From Flavobacteriaceae bacterium (GTDB lineage Bacteria; Bacteroidota; Bacteroidia; Flavobacteriales; Flavobacteriaceae): DNA of 58,884 bases. Numbering within the stretch: the stretch's first letter is position 1; every line of letters starts with the position of its first letter. Shown piece by piece: positions 5,905-54,607 of the stretch. The notes beneath the pieces were generated by a model, which worked only from the letters and a program-made list of their open reading frames with translations, did not search any database and had not been told where the DNA came from. The translations under genes and the position numbers were made by a program. The stretch is from the NCBI GenBank assembly GCA_021647835.1, contig JAKITY010000003.1, positions 1-58,884 of the forward strand. The letters run 5' to 3'.

Positions 5905-5989
5905 AAAAAATAGCCTTTTAATTTGCTAATAAAATAGATGAGTTATTAACAAACTTAGAAACAATTGAAGGTCAAGGAAGTAAAAGTAT

Positions 5990-6057
5990 TGTCAGTTCGA
6001 ACGCAGTCGAGAACTATATCAAATAAAAGAGAGGCTTCGACTCCAATCGACCAGACA
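5990..6057. repeat. REP-like palindromic element
   Basis: The left arm tgtcagttcgaacgcagtcg and right arm cgactccaatcgaccagaca are imperfect inverted repeats. The TTCGA/AGTCGAG core is shared with copies at 52446-52498 and 54052-54101. It lies between the SPOR gene and dprA. Confidence 0.65.
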
Positions 6058-6152
6058 TTATAAGATGAAAACAATAATAAAGTGTAATATTTTTTACGGG
6101 ATTAATGCAAATTAGCAATTATTTTATATCTTTCAATTTCAAATTGTTATCA

Positions 6153-10854: not shown

Positions 10855-13800
10855 CTATATCCTCATCAAAACCTCCAAAGCCTTTTCTACCGAATCTATA
10901 CGAATAAAGGTAATCAAAAGTCGCAACCCTTTTTTGGTTTCCTTTTCTTTCATCACACAAGATGTTGGGTTTTTTTGAACGTAGTTTAAAACGCGTGTAA
11001 AATTTTCGGTTTGATAAAAACCACTTTGTTGGTCGGCAATAAAATAGCCAATCAATCGCTTTTTCTTCAAAATAATGCGTTCCAAACCAATTTCTTTGGC
11101 AATCCATTTGATACGAACGCTGTTAAATAAATCTACAACTTGCGTAGGAATTTCACCAAAACGGTCAATCATATCAATTTCAAATTGCTGAAGTTCTTCT
11201 TCGGTTTTTAGTTCACCTAATTTGTTATACAAACTCAATCTTTCAGAAATTACAGAAATATAATCATCGGGAATTAAAACTTCAAAATCAGTGTCAATTT
11301 GTACTTCTTTGACGTACTCTTTTACCTTTTTATTCTTTTTATACAATTCTTTAAACTCATTTTCTTTGAGTTCTTCAATGGCTTCATTCAATATTTTTTG
11401 ATAGGTATCGAAGCCAATATCATTGATAAATCCACTCTGTTCTCCGCCCAATAAATCTCCTGAACCACGAATTTCTAAATCTTTCATTGCAATGTTAATT
11501 CCGCTTCCTAATTCAGAAAATAAAACTAAGGCTTCAATGCGTTTTCGAGCATCGTCCGTCATTGAATGATATGGAGGCGTAATGAAATAACAGAATGCTT
11601 TTTTGTTGGAACGACCAACACGTCCACGCATTTGATGTAAGTCTGAAAGTCCAAAATTATTGGCATTATTAATGAAAATAGTGTTGGCATTTGGAACGTC
11701 CAATCCGTTTTCGACAATGGTTGTAGAAACTAATATATCAAATTCATTATTCATAAAAGAAAGTATCAAATCTTCCAGTTTTTCACCTTTCATTTGACCA
11801 TGACCAACCGCAATTTTTGCATCAGGAAGCAAGCGTTGCAACATTCCTGCAACCTCTTTGATGTTTTCTATTCTATTGTGAATAAAAAAGACTTGTCCGC
11901 CACGAGAAATTTCATATTGAATGGCATCTCTTATAATTTCTTCCGAAAACCGAATGACTTGCGTCTCAATAGGATGGCGATTTGGAGGTGCTGTATTAAT
12001 GACTGATAAATCTCTTGCAGCCATCAAACTAAACTGTAATGTTCTCGGAATTGGTGTTGCGGTTAAGGTTAAAGTGTCCACATTTTCTTTAATCGTTTTC
12101 AATTTATCTTTTACCGATACGCCAAATTTTTGCTCTTCATCAACAATTAACAACCCTAAATCTTTAAATTTTATGGCTTTATTGGTTAGTTGATGCGTTC
12201 CAATAACGATGTCTATACTTCCGTTTTCCAATCCTTTTAAAACTTCATTTCGTTGTTTTGCAGTTCTAAATCGGTTTAAATAATCAACCGTTACAGGAAA
12301 ATTTTTCAAACGTTCTGTAAATGTTTTATAATGTTGAAAAGCAAGAATGGTTGTTGGCACTAAAATAGCGACTTGTTTTCCATTATCAACCGCCTTAAAA
12401 GCGGCACGAACAGCAATTTCTGTTTTTCCAAAACCTACGTCTCCACACACCAATCTATCCATTGGTTGCTCTTTTTCCATATCGGTTTTTACATCTTGTG
12501 TTGTCGTAAATTGGTCTGGCGTATCTTGATACATAAAACTCGCTTCCAATTCGTGTTGCATAGAAGTATCTGTACCAAATTGAAACCCTTTTTGCGTTTT
12601 TCGTTTTGCGTATAATTGAATTAAATCATAGGCTATTTTTTTAACGCTTTTTTTCGTTTTTTGCTTTAATTTTTTCCACGCACCAGAACCTAATTTATAC
12701 ATTTTTGGTGCTTTGCCATCTTTGCCGTTGTATTTAGAAATTTTATGCAACGAATGAATGCTGATATACAATATATCTCTATCGCCATACATCAATTTAA
12801 TGGCTTCTTGTTGGTTACCTTCAACGTCTATTTTTTGAAGTCCGCCAAATTTTCCAATTCCATGATCGATATGCGTAACGTAGTCGCCAACTTCAAGATT
12901 GCTCAATTCTTTGAGCGTTATGGCTTGCTTTTTAGCATATCCATTTTTTAATCTGAATTTATGAAAACGCTCAAAAATCTGATGATCTGTATAGCAAACT
13001 ATCTTTATGTCATTGTCAATAAAACCTTGATATAAAGGAAGAACAACGGTTTTGTAAGTAACCTTTTGTTCGGCATCTGTAAATATATCATCAAAACGTT
13101 TGGCTTGTTTTTCCGAGTCGCACAAAAGGTAATTTATATATCCTTTTTCGGTGTTTTTCTGCAAATCTTCAATCAATAAATTAAATTGTTTATTGAATGA
13201 TGGTTGCGGTGTTGTGTTAAATTTTATATGTTGGTTGTTGAGCGTAGTCTGTTGGTTGCTGAGCGTAGTCGAAGCATCAACCAAAGAAAACGCTTTCAAT
13301 TGATTTTCAATCAAATTCCCACTACAAAACAATGTTTCGGGTGTTGCCCGTTTTGTTTCTCCTGGTATTTCTGAAAAAATAGTTTTTGATTTTTCAAATA
13401 ACGTATCTAACCGAGTAGAAATCAGTTCTGTATTTTTTGAAAAAATGATGGTATCTGAATGAATATATTTCAAGAAACTTTCTCTTTGCTTGTACTGATC
13501 GGAGTCGAAGTGTTCGTCTAGAAATTTCTTTTCAATCGTTGGTATAATGCTAATTTTTGTTACCTTTTCAGAAGATAATTGTGTTGCGATATCAAAGGTT
13601 CTGATGCTTTCTACTTCGTCTCCAAAAAATTCAATTCTATAAGGTGTATCGTTAGAAAAAGAAAAAACATCAATAATTCCACCACGAACAGAAAATTCTC
13701 CAGGTTCTGTAACAAAATCGGAGCGTTTAAAGTTGTATTCAAAAAGCATTTCGTTTATAAAATCTAAGGAAACCGTTTCGCCAACAGCCAATTTTAAGGT

Positions 13801-14223
13801 GCTTTTTTCAAGCACTTTTTTAGTGATAACTTTCTCAAACAATGCGTTGGGATACGTAACAATGATTGCCGCTTTTTTGCGAGAATTAATGCGATTCAAA
13901 ACCTCAGAACGCAATAAAACATTGGCATTATTAGTTTCTTCAATTTGATACGGTCTGCGATACGATTCTGGATAAAAAAGTACGTTTTTATCGCCAACCA
14001 ATTGCTCTAAATCATTGAGATAATAGGCTGCTTCTTCTTTATCATTAAAAATTAAAAGAAAGGGTTTTTCTGCCTTTTTGAAAGTTGCTGCAATAACAAA
14101 AGACAACGCCGAACCTGCCAAATTCGTAATTTGAAAATGGTTTTTTTCGTGTTGTAATTGCTGCACAATCTCTTTAATTTTTGATGATTGTTCGTAAGCA
14201 GCAACGATATTCTGTTTACTCAA
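10855..14223 (-). CDS. mfd: transcription-repair coupling factor Mfd
   Basis: Mfd displaces RNA polymerase stalled at lesions and recruits UvrA. The 1122-residue product has the UvrB-homology N-terminal region, the RNA-polymerase-interaction segment (around GDYVTHIDHGIGKFGGL), a RecG-like helicase core with Walker A GDVGFGKTE and DEEQ box, motif VI MRGRVGRSNKK, and the C-terminal TRCF domain. The start is TTG at 14223; no upstream ATG in frame is usable and a -7 box lies 16 nt upstream. Residues about 318-332 contain a duplicated seven-residue unit derived from a 21-bp REP-like tandem repeat (13229-13270). Confidence 0.96.
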   Translation of the reverse strand: MSKQNIVAAYEQSSKIKEIVQQLQHEKNHFQITNLAGSALSFVIAATFKKAEKPFLLIFNDKEEAAYYLNDLEQLVGDKNVLFYPESYRRPYQIEETNNANVLLRSEVLNRINSRKKAAIIVTYPNALFEKVITKKVLEKSTLKLAVGETVSLDFINEMLFEYNFKRSDFVTEPGEFSVRGGIIDVFSFSNDTPYRIEFFGDEVESIRTFDIATQLSSEKVTKISIIPTIEKKFLDEHFDSDQYKQRESFLKYIHSDTIIFSKNTELISTRLDTLFEKSKTIFSEIPGETKRATPETLFCSGNLIENQLKAFSLVDASTTLSNQQTTLNNQHIKFNTTPQPSFNKQFNLLIEDLQKNTEKGYINYLLCDSEKQAKRFDDIFTDAEQKVTYKTVVLPLYQGFIDNDIKIVCYTDHQIFERFHKFRLKNGYAKKQAITLKELSNLEVGDYVTHIDHGIGKFGGLQKIDVEGNQQEAIKLMYGDRDILYISIHSLHKISKYNGKDGKAPKMYKLGSGAWKKLKQKTKKSVKKIAYDLIQLYAKRKTQKGFQFGTDTSMQHELEASFMYQDTPDQFTTTQDVKTDMEKEQPMDRLVCGDVGFGKTEIAVRAAFKAVDNGKQVAILVPTTILAFQHYKTFTERLKNFPVTVDYLNRFRTAKQRNEVLKGLENGSIDIVIGTHQLTNKAIKFKDLGLLIVDEEQKFGVSVKDKLKTIKENVDTLTLTATPIPRTLQFSLMAARDLSVINTAPPNRHPIETQVIRFSEEIIRDAIQYEISRGGQVFFIHNRIENIKEVAGMLQRLLPDAKIAVGHGQMKGEKLEDLILSFMNNEFDILVSTTIVENGLDVPNANTIFINNANNFGLSDLHQMRGRVGRSNKKAFCYFITPPYHSMTDDARKRIEALVLFSELGSGINIAMKDLEIRGSGDLLGGEQSGFINDIGFDTYQKILNEAIEELKENEFKELYKKNKKVKEYVKEVQIDTDFEVLIPDDYISVISERLSLYNKLGELKTEEELQQFEIDMIDRFGEIPTQVVDLFNSVRIKWIAKEIGLERIILKKKRLIGYFIADQQSGFYQTENFTRVLNYVQKNPTSCVMKEKETKKGLRLLITFIRIDSVEKALEVLMRI
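13229..13280. repeat. 21-bp tandem duplication with REP-like core inside mfd
   Basis: Two copies of tgttggttg(t/c)tgagcgtagtc lie at 13229-13249 and 13250-13270, differing at one base. The second continues into gaagcatcaacc, which pairs with ggttg of the repeat. GAGCGTAGTCGAAG matches the core of the REP-like family seen elsewhere in the window. The unit length keeps mfd in frame. Confidence 0.65.
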
Positions 14224-20300: not shown

Positions 20301-21689
20301 ATGAAACATTTAAGAATAGCTTTATTAGCTTTACTTGTAGTTGCTGGATATAGCAACGTAAACGCTCAGGATGAGAATAATCCATGGGCAATAAACATCG
20401 GTGTAAATGCCGTTGATTTTTACCCAGTTAATCATCCATCAATTGTAGATGAGTCAGGAGATTCAACAGGATGGTATGATGAATTTTTTAACGCTAAAGA
20501 TCATTATAATATTATTCCTTCAATTTCAAGAGTTTCTGTAGGAAGGTATTTAGATGCAGGTTTCGCTTTTGAGTTAGCAGGAACGATAAATAAAATCACT
20601 GATATTGGAGATACAGCGGCACCAGATTTAAGTTATTACGGTGTTGATGGAGCAATTAAATATGACTTAAACAATCTCATGTTTAAGAATTCTAAATGGT
20701 TTGACCCTTACGCTTCAGTTGGAGGTGGTTATACTTGGATTGATTCTAAAGGAGTAGGTACTGTTAATGGAGGACTAGGAACTAACCTTTGGGTAAGTGA
20801 CAATTTCGGATTTAATATTCAAACTACATATAAACATGCTTTTGATGATAATAATATACTTCCTCACTTTCAACATGCTGCTGGTATAACAGTAAGATTT
20901 GGTGGAACTGATACAGATGGTGATGGCATATACGATAAAGATGATGCTTGTCCTGAAGTATTTGGATTAGAAGAATTTAATGGTTGTCCAGATTCAGATG
21001 GTGATGGTGTTATTGATTCAGAAGATGCATGTCCAGATGTTGCTGGTTTAGCAGAATTAAACGGTTGTCCAGATGCTGATGGTGATGGAATTGCTGATGG
21101 CGAAGATAATTGTCCAAACGAAAAAGGATCTAAGGCAAATAATGGATGTCCAGATGCTGACGGTGATGGTATCGTTGATGGAAAAGATAATTGCCCTAAT
21201 GAGGCAGGTCCTGCGGCAAACAATGGATGTCCTTGGGCTGATAAAGATGGAGATAAAATCTTAGATAAAGATGATAAATGTCCAGAAATTCCTGGTGTAG
21301 CTGAGTACAATGGATGTCCTCCTCCAGCAAGATTGACTGTAGAACAAATTTCTGTATTAGATAACTTAGCAAGAACAGTATATTTCAAAACAGGAAAAGA
21401 TTCGTTTACTACTGAAACGTATGCTATTTTAGATAAAATTGTTGATTTAATTAAAGATTTTCCAGCAGAGAATTTCCACGTTGGTGGTCATACAGATAGC
21501 GTTGGTTCTAAATCATTAAATCAAAGTTTATCTGAAAGCAGAGCTGCTGCGGTAAAAAGTTACTTAGCCTCTAAAGTAGGTAATTCATTTACTTCTGCAG
21601 GTTATGGAGAAGATTCTCCTATTGCATCTAATAGAACAAGAGACGGTAGGTCACAAAACAGAAGAGTTGAAATTAAATTAGTTAGATAA
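20301..21689 (+). CDS. OmpA family outer membrane protein with thrombospondin type 3 repeats
   Basis: The 462-residue protein anchors the outer membrane to peptidoglycan. It has a signal peptide (to NVNAQ, residue 22), a beta-barrel (about 25-205), five calcium-binding DxDGDGI-type thrombospondin type 3 repeats (about 209-340, each with a CP pair and NGCP) and a C-terminal OmpA domain (about 350-462) with GGHTDSVGS and the NRRVEI end, carrying the Asp and Arg that bind diaminopimelate. A strong promoter and a terminator frame it as a single-gene transcript between the two AddAB-like genes. Confidence 0.94.
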   Translation: MKHLRIALLALLVVAGYSNVNAQDENNPWAINIGVNAVDFYPVNHPSIVDESGDSTGWYDEFFNAKDHYNIIPSISRVSVGRYLDAGFAFELAGTINKITDIGDTAAPDLSYYGVDGAIKYDLNNLMFKNSKWFDPYASVGGGYTWIDSKGVGTVNGGLGTNLWVSDNFGFNIQTTYKHAFDDNNILPHFQHAAGITVRFGGTDTDGDGIYDKDDACPEVFGLEEFNGCPDSDGDGVIDSEDACPDVAGLAELNGCPDADGDGIADGEDNCPNEKGSKANNGCPDADGDGIVDGKDNCPNEAGPAANNGCPWADKDGDKILDKDDKCPEIPGVAEYNGCPPPARLTVEQISVLDNLARTVYFKTGKDSFTTETYAILDKIVDLIKDFPAENFHVGGHTDSVGSKSLNQSLSESRAAAVKSYLASKVGNSFTSAGYGEDSPIASNRTRDGRSQNRRVEIKLVR

Positions 21690-38258: not shown

Positions 38259-38280
38259 AAGGATATTAAAAAAACGTAAT

Positions 38281-38334
38281 GTTATTCCTGCAAAGGCAGG
38301 AATCTATATAGATTTCTGCCTTTGCAGGAATAAC
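38281..38334. repeat. long near-perfect palindrome between batA and batB
   Basis: The arms gttattcctgcaaaggcagg (continuing aatctata) and their reverse complement run head to head with no real loop; I find one mismatch in 27 pairs. The sequence resembles an AT-rich form of the widespread gtcattcccgcgaaagcggg palindrome. Nothing else is in the 136-nt batA-batB gap. Confidence 0.8.
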
Positions 38335-38394
38335 AAAAAGGAAATAATTTAAAAACAAATAAACACCTAAGAGATTAAACAATTCCGCAACCTT

Positions 38395-39429: not shown

Positions 39430-40193
39430 GAAAAATAGTATTCATATTATTCTTTTTACCGTTGAGTCTTTTTGCTCAGCAAGATAAGGTTGCACTCGAA
39501 AAAGAGGCAAGACAATTAGTGCGTGAAGGAAATGAACTTTACAATCAATTAAAATTTGCTGATGCAGAGGTAAAATATAAAAAAGCATTAGAAAAAAATC
39601 CTGATTATGAAATTGCAAAATACAATTTAGGAAATGCATTATCACAACAAAATAGAACAAAGGAAGCGATAAAAGAATATGAATTGGTTGCCAAGACAAC
39701 TAAAGATAATTTTACAAGAGCATCATCAATGCATAATATTGGGAATGCACATTATCAAGATAAAGACTATCAAAAAGCTGTTGATTCTTATAAACATTCG
39801 TTGAGAGCAAATCCAGAAGATGATGAAACGCGTTACAATTTAGCATTGGCACAAGAAATGTTAAAAAACCAAGAGCAAAACGAAGATAAAGATAAGGACA
39901 AAAAAGATAATAAAGACGACAAGAATAAGGATAAAGATAAGAAGGACGATAAAAAAGAAGGAGACGACAAGAAAGATGAGGATAAAAAGAATGATAAAAA
40001 GAATGATAAAAGTGATCCCAACAAAGATAAAAAAGACGACAAGAAAGAACAAAAACCCCAACAAGGAAAATTATCTCCTCAACAGGTTAAGCAGTTGTTA
40101 GATGCAATGAATAATGAAGAGCAAAAGACTCAGAAAAAGATGAATGCGAAGAAAGAGAGAGGCAAAAAAATAAAACAAGAAAAAGATTGGTAA
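39426..40193 (+). CDS. batC: BatC, tetratricopeptide protein with Lys/Asp-rich tail
   Basis: The 255-residue protein has a signal peptide (to LFAQ, residue 17), TPR units (about 24-145) and a very unusual low-complexity tail (about 150-225) built of DKDKK/DDKK/NDKK units. The tail is a polyampholyte and probably disordered. It overlaps batB by four bases and is followed nine bases later by batD. BatC is thought to organise the Bat complex in the periplasm. Confidence 0.9.
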   Translation: MRKIVFILFFLPLSLFAQQDKVALEKEARQLVREGNELYNQLKFADAEVKYKKALEKNPDYEIAKYNLGNALSQQNRTKEAIKEYELVAKTTKDNFTRASSMHNIGNAHYQDKDYQKAVDSYKHSLRANPEDDETRYNLALAQEMLKNQEQNEDKDKDKKDNKDDKNKDKDKKDDKKEGDDKKDEDKKNDKKNDKSDPNKDKKDDKKEQKPQQGKLSPQQVKQLLDAMNNEEQKTQKKMNAKKERGKKIKQEKDW

Positions 40194-52445: not shown

Positions 52446-52498
52446 TCTCGACTCCACTCAACCTGACAAGAACAATGTCTTTTCGAGCGGAGTCGAGA
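52446..52498. repeat. REP-like palindromic element in the metG leader
   Basis: tctcgactccactc ... tgaca and tgtct ... gagcggagtcgaga are inverted repeats. The arms share the cgactcc/gagtcgag core with the elements at 5990 and 54052. It ends 24 nt before the metG start codon and would fold in the mRNA leader. Confidence 0.7.
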
Positions 52499-52522
52499 AG
52501 TTGAATATAAAAAACACATTTT

Positions 52523-54607
52523 TTGAGCAGATATACAATTACAGCAGCCTTACCGTACACAAACGGTCCAGTTCACATAGGTCATTTGGCAGGAGTTTAC
52601 GTTCCATCCGATATTTATGCACGTTATTTACGTTTAACAGGCAACGATGTTGCTTTTGTTTGCGGTTCTGATGAACATGGAGTTCCGATTACAATGAGAG
52701 CTAAAAAAGAAGGAATTACACCGCAACAAATTGTTGATAAATACCATGCGATTATTAAAAATTCTTTTTCTGAATTCGGAATTACATTTGATAATTATTC
52801 ACGCACATCTGCAAAGATTCACCACGATACAGCATCAGAGTTTTTTAAAGATTTATATGCAAATGGTAAATTTATAGAAGAAGTTACAGAACAATTGTAT
52901 GACGAAGAGGCAAATCAATTTCTTGCAGATAGATTTGTTGTCGGTACTTGTCCAAAATGTGGAAATGAAGAAAGTTATGGTGATCAATGTGAAAAGTGTG
53001 GAACGAGCCATAATGCGACAGATTTAATCAATCCGAAATCGGCAATTACAGGAAATGTACCAACAACCAAAGAAACAAAACATTGGTTTTTACCTTTAGA
53101 TGAATATGAATCTTGGTTAAGAGAATGGATTGTAGAAGGTCATAAAAATGACTGGAAAGCCAATGTTTTAGGGCAGGTAAAGTCTTGGTTAGATGATGGT
53201 TTACGACCAAGAGCAGTAACTCGTGATTTAGATTGGGGAATTCCCGTACCTGTTGAAGGTGCTGACGGAAAAGTATTGTATGTTTGGTTTGATGCACCAA
53301 TTGGTTACATTTCTGCAACCAAAGAATGGGCAGAACGAGAAGGAAAAGATTGGAAACAATATTGGAAAGATGAAGACACAAAACTGATTCATTTTATAGG
53401 GAAAGACAACATCGTTTTTCACTGTATAATTTTTCCTGCGATGTTAAAAGCCGAAGGAAGTTATATTTTGCCAGAAAATGTTCCTGCAAATGAATTTTTA
53501 AATCTTGAAGATAATAAAATTTCAACTTCTAAAAATTGGGCAGTTTGGTTGCACGAATATTTAGAAGATTTTCCAGAAAAACAAGACGTATTGCGTTATG
53601 CCTTGACAGCAAATGCACCAGAAACAAAAGATAATAATTTCACTTGGAAAGATTTTCAAACAAGAAATAACAGCGAATTGGTTGGCATTTTTGGTAACTT
53701 CATCAATCGTGTAGTTGTTTTGACTAATAAATATTATAACGGACAAGTACCGACTCCAAATAGTTTTTCAGATGTTGATGAACAAACATTAGAAAAAATG
53801 CGAGAATTTCCACAGATAATTTCTAACTCTATTGAAAGGTATCGCTTTAGAGAAGCAATGAATAATTTAATGAATTTGGCGCGACTTGGAAATAAATATT
53901 TAGCAGATGAAGAGCCTTGGAAAGTTATAAAATTTGATGAAGAGCGAGTGCAAACAGTAATGTTTATAGCGTTACAAATTGCATCTGCTTTGGCAACATT
54001 GTCAGAGCCATTTTTACCTTTTACTTCTGATAAATTAAAAGGAATTCTGAATGTCACTTCGAGCCTTTCGACTGCGCTCAAGACAGGCTCTGTCGAGAAT
54101 TCGTGGAATGGCGTTTCAGAAAAAGAAGTATTACTTCCAGCAAATCATCGAATTCAAGAAGGAAAAGCAGAATTACTTTTTGCTAAAATTGAAGATAAAG
54201 AGATTCAGATACAGTTAGACAAATTAGAAGCAACAAAGCAAGCGAATGAACAAGCAAACAAAGTTGTAGAGCCTCAAAAAGAGACTGTCGAGTTTGATTA
54301 TTTTACAAAGTTAGATATTAGAATAGGAACAATTTTAGAGGCTGTTAAAGTACCAAAAACTAAGAAGTTGTTACAATTAAAAGTAGATGTTGGGCTTGAT
54401 ATACGCACAATTGTTTCTGGAATTGCAGAAAGTTTTAAACTAGAAGAAATTATTGGTCAACGCGTATGTGTTTTGGTAAATCTTGCTCCGAGAACACTAA
54501 GAGGAGTTGAGAGTCAAGGAATGATTTTAATGGCGGATACCAAAGACGGAAAACTAGCCTTTATAGAACCTGAACGTGATGTTGAGAATGGCGAGAGTGT
54601 GAGTTAG
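52523..54607 (+). CDS. metG: methionyl-tRNA synthetase
   Basis: The 694-residue enzyme charges tRNA-Met. It has the HIGH motif (HIGH at residues 18-21), a zinc knuckle CPKC...CEKC (near residues 145-161), KISTS in place of KMSKS (NKISTSKNW), the anticodon-binding helical domain and a C-terminal EMAP/Trbp tRNA-binding domain (about 590-694, [20 protein letters not shown]). The start is TTG at 52523. Codons for residues about 510-527 ([15 protein letters not shown] region) come from a REP-like repeat inserted in frame at 54052-54101. Confidence 0.96.
54052..54101. repeat. REP-like element inserted in frame inside metG
   Basis: tgtcacttcgagcctttcga, then ctgcgctcaagacaggctct, then gtcgagaa matches the REP-like repeats often seen between genes of Flavobacteria and, in core, those at 5990 and 52446. 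It lies wholly inside the metG coding sequence. Confidence 0.75.

Follow-up and report, generated by a model that had tools for sequence, protein, structure and literature searches.

How can a dispersed palindromic repeat come to lie in frame within an essential gene, and what allows it to persist there? This question is raised by the metG gene of a Flavobacteriaceae bacterium with a genome of 2.03 Mb, in which a repeat of this kind lies within the coding sequence for methionyl-tRNA synthetase (MetRS). The stretch of DNA analyzed, referred to here as the window, comprises 58,884 nucleotides, and the coordinates of its features are collected in Table 1. The reading regarded as probable is that the stretch in metG derives from a TGTC-tagged palindrome of the REP type, selfish and dispersed, which entered in frame and survived in a tolerant loop, and that different repeat families have refilled this loop over time.

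Table 1. Positions of the metG gene, its insert and related repeats in the window, with the basis of each assignment
Feature	Position	Strand	Basis
metG (methionyl-tRNA synthetase), 694 codons, TTG start	52523..54607	+	Open reading frame; Pfam tRNA-synt_1g, Anticodon_3 and tRNA_bind; NCBIfam methionine--tRNA ligase above cut-off; PDB MetRS matches
In-frame composite REP, imperfect double unit of the TGTC-tagged TCGAG palindrome	54052..54101	+	Copies in the genome; similar composite in the menE-like gene of G000 and G009
Codons of the length-variable loop N510-S527, flanked by conserved IL and W528	54050..54103	+	Alignments; AlphaFold2 low-confidence loop 514-524
Inverted pair of the same TGTC/TCGAG repeat, directly upstream of the metG start, between divergent genes	52446..52499	.	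Sequence and core matches
Intergenic inverted pair of the same TGTC/TCGAG repeat	5988..6058	.	Core matches
Decayed repeat copies in frame within mfd (10855-14223)	13240..13293	-	Core matches; mfd above NCBIfam cut-off

The insert in metG and its repeat family

By its Pfam domains, the gene product is a MetRS of the kind that carries a tRNA-binding domain at its C-terminus. The element within it runs from TGTCACTTCGAG, which begins at 54052, to CTGTCGAGAATT, has its 3' boundary at TCTGTCGAGAATT, whose last base is 54101, and is an imperfect doublet, read in frame, of a 26-bp palindromic repeat that is dispersed in the genome. An initial annotation of this DNA had described a REP-like palindrome inside metG and had taken it for a dispersed repeat read in frame. 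The palindrome is confirmed by the core TCGAGCGNAGTCGA, of which the own genome contains 57 copies when one mismatch is allowed, versus 0 for the reversed control, and the dispersal and the frame are borne out by the genome copies and the uninterrupted open reading frame, respectively. The same core, with at most two mismatches, has six matches in the window versus 0.18 expected in shuffles, and a comparison of the 76-bp metG region with the genome gives five additional matches, of which the best covers 54 bp at 89%.

The 34 copies with an exact core give the unit consensus TGTC-NNN-TCGAGCGNAGTCGAGA-N(C/G)T, in which the N of the core is mostly C or G. These copies are about 26 bp long, with sharp edges, a TGTC tag whose first letter is T in 33 of the 34, and no strong flanking motif, the best one reaching 0.51 bits at -14. 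With its 57 cores and 26-bp consensus, the repeat is a REP in the broad sense of a palindrome of 20-40 bp dispersed in many copies. The sequence TGTCANNTCGAGCGNAGTCGAG, with at most one mismatch, was found in 194 of 397 genomes of the family, and its control in 0. A search of the window with Rfam at gathering scores returned tRNA as the sole match.

Because repeats also precede metG in genomes G006 and G009, the inverted pair directly upstream of the gene may be old. Other repeated sequences in the window include a palindrome at 38280-38335, with 28-nt arms that are 96% complementary and have no spacer, which resembles another repeat family, a purine-rich direct-repeat stretch at 39864-40045, and direct repeats of 81 nt at 20900-21310.

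The initial annotation had placed the element between the anticodon-binding and the tRNA-binding domains, which proved to be incorrect: the insert lies inside Pfam Anticodon_3 (residues 409-562), 71 residues ahead of tRNA_bind (599-691). The tryptophan directly after the loop is invariant in 41 aligned sequences. The loop has 18 residues here versus 6 in three same-genus genes without a repeat (L090, L091 and L093). The annotated figure of about 17 added residues therefore describes what the element itself encodes (about 16-17), and not the net gain, which amounts to 12 relative to those three genes.

In an AlphaFold2 prediction from a 41-row alignment, the mean pLDDT is 79.6, the block means are 90-97 for residues 381-510 and 91 for residues 531-540, and residues 514-524 fall below 50. 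Because three other segments (326-340, 365-371 and 579-585, the first two in the catalytic domain) also fall below 50, the value at 514-524 is weak support for a permissive stretch and does not in itself demonstrate disorder. Among the PDB matches, the stretch matched by 1f4l, 1qqt and others stops at residue 511, where the insert begins, and the match to 1rqg runs through to residue 692; the chains 1f4l and 1qqt are presumably those of Escherichia coli MetRS.

Different repeat families in the MetG loop

The loop was compared in the best 80 of 586 named loci together with 14 same-genus genomes, the own genome included, which gave 93 readable loops (L094 being unreadable); L001 and L085 are identical, and the sampled rows are related by kinship. 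The named loci are mostly titled Flavobacteriaceae, Lutibacter, Polaribacter, Tenacibaculum, Maribacter or Flavobacterium, genera that we take to belong to Flavobacteriaceae throughout. Loop length ranges from 6 to 53 residues in these 93 relatives, in agreement with the permissive stretch proposed in the initial annotation. Relatives without a recognizable repeat, beyond the three short loops mentioned above, have loops of 6 to 33 residues. In six Flavobacterium loci (L034, L049, L050, L051, L063 and L066), loops of 32-33 residues without a recognizable repeat occupy the same site, and the loop peptide is alike in L049, L050, L051 and L063.

When scored against twelve repeat consensuses, 23 of the 93 loops reach at least 13, compared with 2 of 5580 control windows of the same genes; seven of the 23 (L001, L011, L042, L082, L083, L085 and L088) supplied a consensus or equal its supplier, and without them the fraction is 16 of 86. 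The core, with at most two mismatches, has 11 matches in the loop (in 10 of the 93 metG genes) and 2 elsewhere, the loop representing 2.6% of 194.6 kb. In these counts, the composite loop of L011 was ended at its first W, so that its second unit was scored outside the loop and its length was taken as 16. Because the rows are related, the loop counts are not independent events.

That the repeat in metG reflects chance similarity or an assembly artefact is a concern suggested by the state of the own genome, which is 69% complete and in 115 contigs. The shuffle, reversed-pattern and control-window tests speak against it, and the same kind of insert occupies the metG loop in isolates and in one complete chromosome (L044, L040), so it is not an artefact of metagenome assembly. 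This explanation is considered negligible.

The contents of the loop differ considerably among the same-genus genomes. The metG loop is of the CGTCATTCTGAAC..GAATC type in G001, of the TGTCATTCCGCAC..GGAATCC type in G005 and of the TGTCATGCTGAGC type in G007 (and L001); it holds a composite in G008, a single TCGAG unit in G009 and a decayed D-type unit in G012. G002, G003 and G006 have TCGAG units that are weak and look decayed, and no repeat is present in G010, G011 and G013. The peptides encoded by the different types differ strongly, and paired arm letters change together between species (CAT..ATG, GGT..ACC). Four composites (L013, L019, L043 and L083) keep the TGTC..TCGAG outer arms and differ in their inner sequences.

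These loop types often have further copies in the genomes that carry them. A joined query of four loops (E <= 1) gave at least 50 matches in G001, at least 43 in G005, at least 46 in G008, at least 15 in G007, at least 8 in the own genome (G000) and at least 4 in G009. Among the matches listed, nearly all in G001 are to its own metG type, and about half in G005 are to its own type and about half to that of G001. For G001, G005 and G008, the type present in the loop recurs elsewhere in the genome, and G007 has one further copy among the matches listed. For the named loci, 9 of 10 genomes were searched (L043 excluded), and repeat matches beyond metG were found in all nine. The loop's own type was found again in six of them (L004, L011, L036, L040, L042 and L044), and L013, L019 and L026 show few or no convincing further copies of the exact loop type among the matches listed.

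The initial annotation had pictured a single insertion event, a view with which the different repeat families in the same loop are at odds. Relatives without the repeat also lack the inserted residues, and in distant relatives, residues such as NVTSSAVE are accompanied by the repeat in the DNA, so that the refuting condition named in the initial annotation did not tell against it. Since different repeats fill the same spot in many relatives, selfish DNA seems to have settled in the MetG loop recurrently, and the occurrence of repeat-bearing beside repeat-free close relatives suggests that the repeat family may still be active.

On a tree of the 93 MetG proteins with the loop removed (a quick search with SH-aLRT support only), parsimony requires a minimum of 21 changes in repeat class and of 14 in presence over 84 scored rows, with 9 rows of intermediate score left out; such counts cannot tell gain from loss. 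The locus of Flavobacterium pokkalii (L044) carries a near-perfect unit, which has a 97% copy elsewhere in its genome, and the five other rows of its clade carry none. The sister Maribacter rows L036 and L046 hold different families. A near-perfect unit is also present in Maribacter halichondriae.

The position at which the units start is more uniform. A search for TGTC plus arm matched 21 genes; in 17 of them the tag starts 2 nt past the conserved IL codons, and this register is common to the TCGAG (T), CTGAG (G), A and D types in distant genera of both main clades. Tags off this register start at 6 (L020), 20 (L083) and 24 (L001 and L085), the CATTC types (L082, L088, L033; G001, G005) start at 0, and the CATGCTGAG type (G007/L001) starts at 24. 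When the 24 ten-residue loops were compared with the TCGAG unit in the 2-nt register alone, 9 agreed with it at 18-24 of 26 positions. For those without a recognizable repeat, codon shuffling gives p 0.0055 for L047 and p 0.011 for L035, and 11 such loops jointly give p 0.02.

The shared register fits common descent, conversion or target preference better than random landing, and each of target preference, conversion between copies and partial common descent could produce it. One rival explanation therefore deserves attention, namely that a single ancient insertion in the flavobacterial ancestor was inherited, decayed or was deleted by lineage and was refreshed by conversion, the site being an old resident. 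It would explain why tags of four repeat types share a start nucleotide in both main clades, why some repeat-free loops of ten residues resemble decayed units and why the composites keep their outer arms. It is challenged by the families that start at other offsets, by the near-perfect unit of F. pokkalii among repeat-free clade rows, and by the paired arm letters that differ together between species, which point to replacement of whole units. On balance, ancient inheritance is regarded as unlikely, and repeated gain of the repeats is favored. A related reading, doubtful but possible, is that the loops of the MetG anticodon domain, the MenE-like hinge and ValS are standing docking sites, whose content is swapped unit for unit, in a largely fixed register, with the dominant families by targeted insertion or conversion. 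Because of the shared register, the explanation by selfish units refilling a tolerant loop was rated slightly lower, and the docking-site and inheritance readings higher.

Copies in other genes and the persistence of inserts

Copies of the repeat occur within genes as well as between them, whereas the initial annotation had supposed that all but the one in metG were intergenic. Among the 57 cores of the own genome, 47 lie in no ORF of at least 80 aa with 25 residues on each side, 1 is doubtful, and 9 are in-frame copies, flanked on each side by at least 25 residues, in eight recognizable genes; intragenic copies can be recognized only if the frame is open, and these counts leave out frame-breaking insertions. 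The eight genes are metG, valS and rsmE (NCBIfam, above cut-off), genes for an E2 acyltransferase, a methyltransferase, an alpha-2-macroglobulin-like protein (two sites) and PRAI (trpF), identified by Pfam, and a menE-like gene (Pfam AMP-binding). The last name is tentative, since the NCBIfam menE models remain below cut-off, the best model for o-succinylbenzoate--CoA ligase reaching 85 bits versus a cut-off of 345. The doubtful core, C11:4507, was dropped as the tenth in an ORF because its 118-residue ORF is unconvincing. The decayed copy in mfd, also within the window, has two mismatches in its best core and is outside the 57. The repeat is thus found mostly outside genes, and since a rough count of ORFs puts the coding share of the window at about 92.5%, genes are strongly depleted of cores.

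Variety at one site is also found in two of the other genes. The alignment of the menE-like gene comprised 13 pieces from 12 genomes (L174-L187, with L185 and L187 from one genome and the G012 pieces left out), and G000 denotes the own genome in the row labels of both comparisons. Inspected by eye, the hinge contains a composite resembling that of metG in G000 and G009. Other repeat-like units are present in G002, G003, G005, G006, G007, G008 and G011, an uncertain one in G013 and nothing recognizable in G001 and G010. For valS, 11 of 13 rows (L188-L200) were readable, G009 and G013 being unreadable and G007 being left out; the loop holds TCGAG units in G000 and G004, a different unit in G008 and none in the other eight. 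A joined query of three menE-like and valS units (E <= 0.1) gave 8 to 46 matches in each of seven genomes, which identifies these units as dispersed repeats.

Under the preferred explanation, selfish units would land widely and last mainly between genes, and those within genes would last only if they leave the frame intact and fall in a permissive loop. The single-unit consensus, as read from its letters, is stop-free in five of six frames, so a unit can be translated. The unit in metG would sit at the C-terminal edge of the anticodon-binding domain, in a loop on the protein surface that can take up additional residues with little harm, and the copy would survive, presumably as a neutral passenger, because this loop tolerates them. 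Survivors would gather in a few permissive loops because purifying selection would remove insertions nearly everywhere else, and species would refill the same loop over time with the repeat families abundant in their own genomes.

The opposite view is that the metG repeat is kept for a function, which could be to pause translation at a domain end through an mRNA hairpin, to bind a protein on the DNA or to modify a contact with tRNA. This view draws on the site lying near the end of a domain and on the recurrence of repeats in three enzymes. The metG copy, a degenerate hairpin at the RNA level, folds no better than shuffles (z -0.21), and the mean folding profile over the metG relatives has no dip at the loop. 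These results, the strong differences among the encoded peptides and the many relatives without a repeat make a retained function very improbable. RNA folding was also considered as a general palindrome test for the loop and was rejected, as many repeat-rich loops rank high and so do the repeat-free loops L075 and L090.

One codon-level position in an essential gene, occupied by several repeat families in many genera, amounts to a natural experiment on loops that tolerate foreign peptides. The metG site can serve to date the activity of repeats and to study the movement of REPs for which no transposase is known, and the explanation proposed here would account for odd, non-conserved peptides in the MetG, ValS and MenE-like proteins of Flavobacteriaceae.

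Mobilization and comparison with known systems

If the units are mobile, as the preferred reading supposes, a RAYT would be a candidate mobilizer of the TGTC/TCGAG repeat, and this candidate was not supported. The core, with at most one mismatch, is absent from all 15 PF01797 loci of the 14 same-genus genomes, of which the own genome is 69% complete, and the RAYT-like Y1 transposase genes L145 (G008), L146 (G001) and L148 (G005) each lie beside a different palindrome of their own. The arrangement of RAYT-linked REPs (REPtrons), in which the RAYT gene is flanked by the same palindrome, was therefore not found. The likeness to REPIN/RAYT systems consists in short palindromes, often in inverted pairs, and the difference in that none of the 15 PF01797 loci has a Y1 transposase gene flanked by the TGTC/TCGAG repeat.

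According to the available part of a 2013 study (PMC3733652), GTAG- and CGTC-tagged REPs are tagged palindromes of 20-40 bp, often arranged as dimers, and some lie wholly within ORFs, including those of tRNA synthetases. The same part reports two Xanthomonas whose recB genes carry different REPs at roughly corresponding positions, and CGTC-type REPs seem to be without a dedicated transposase. The main flavobacterial family differs in its tag, which is TGTC rather than an unpaired CGTC; the metG type of G001 does begin with CGTC. Words beginning with 'Flavobacteri' occur 0 times in the main text of PMC3733652, and its available part contains no description of turnover over many genera at one loop. 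A literature search, from whose scope subscription papers were mostly absent, found no paper on the flavobacterial TGTC family or on same-site turnover in metG over many lineages. REPs inside ORFs are accordingly a known kind of element, and what was not found in the literature searched is this TGTC family together with its many-lineage variety at one loop.

Other elements read within genes are covered in the available part of a 2007 review (PMC2229807). ERIC/RU-1 and Correia-type MITEs are described there as miniature repeats fused in frame to genes; they are longer than the flavobacterial units and have terminal inverted repeats. Rickettsia palindromic elements (RPEs), as presented in the same part, are palindromic repeats of 105-146 bp that lie in frame in conserved protein genes, 19 reading frames being covered, and a guanylate kinase (gmk) with an RPE insert remains active. 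The flavobacterial repeats resemble RPEs, so described, in being palindromes inserted in frame in conserved genes, and they differ from them in that their units measure about 26 bp in the Flavobacteriaceae relatives and in that several repeat types occupy the same site.
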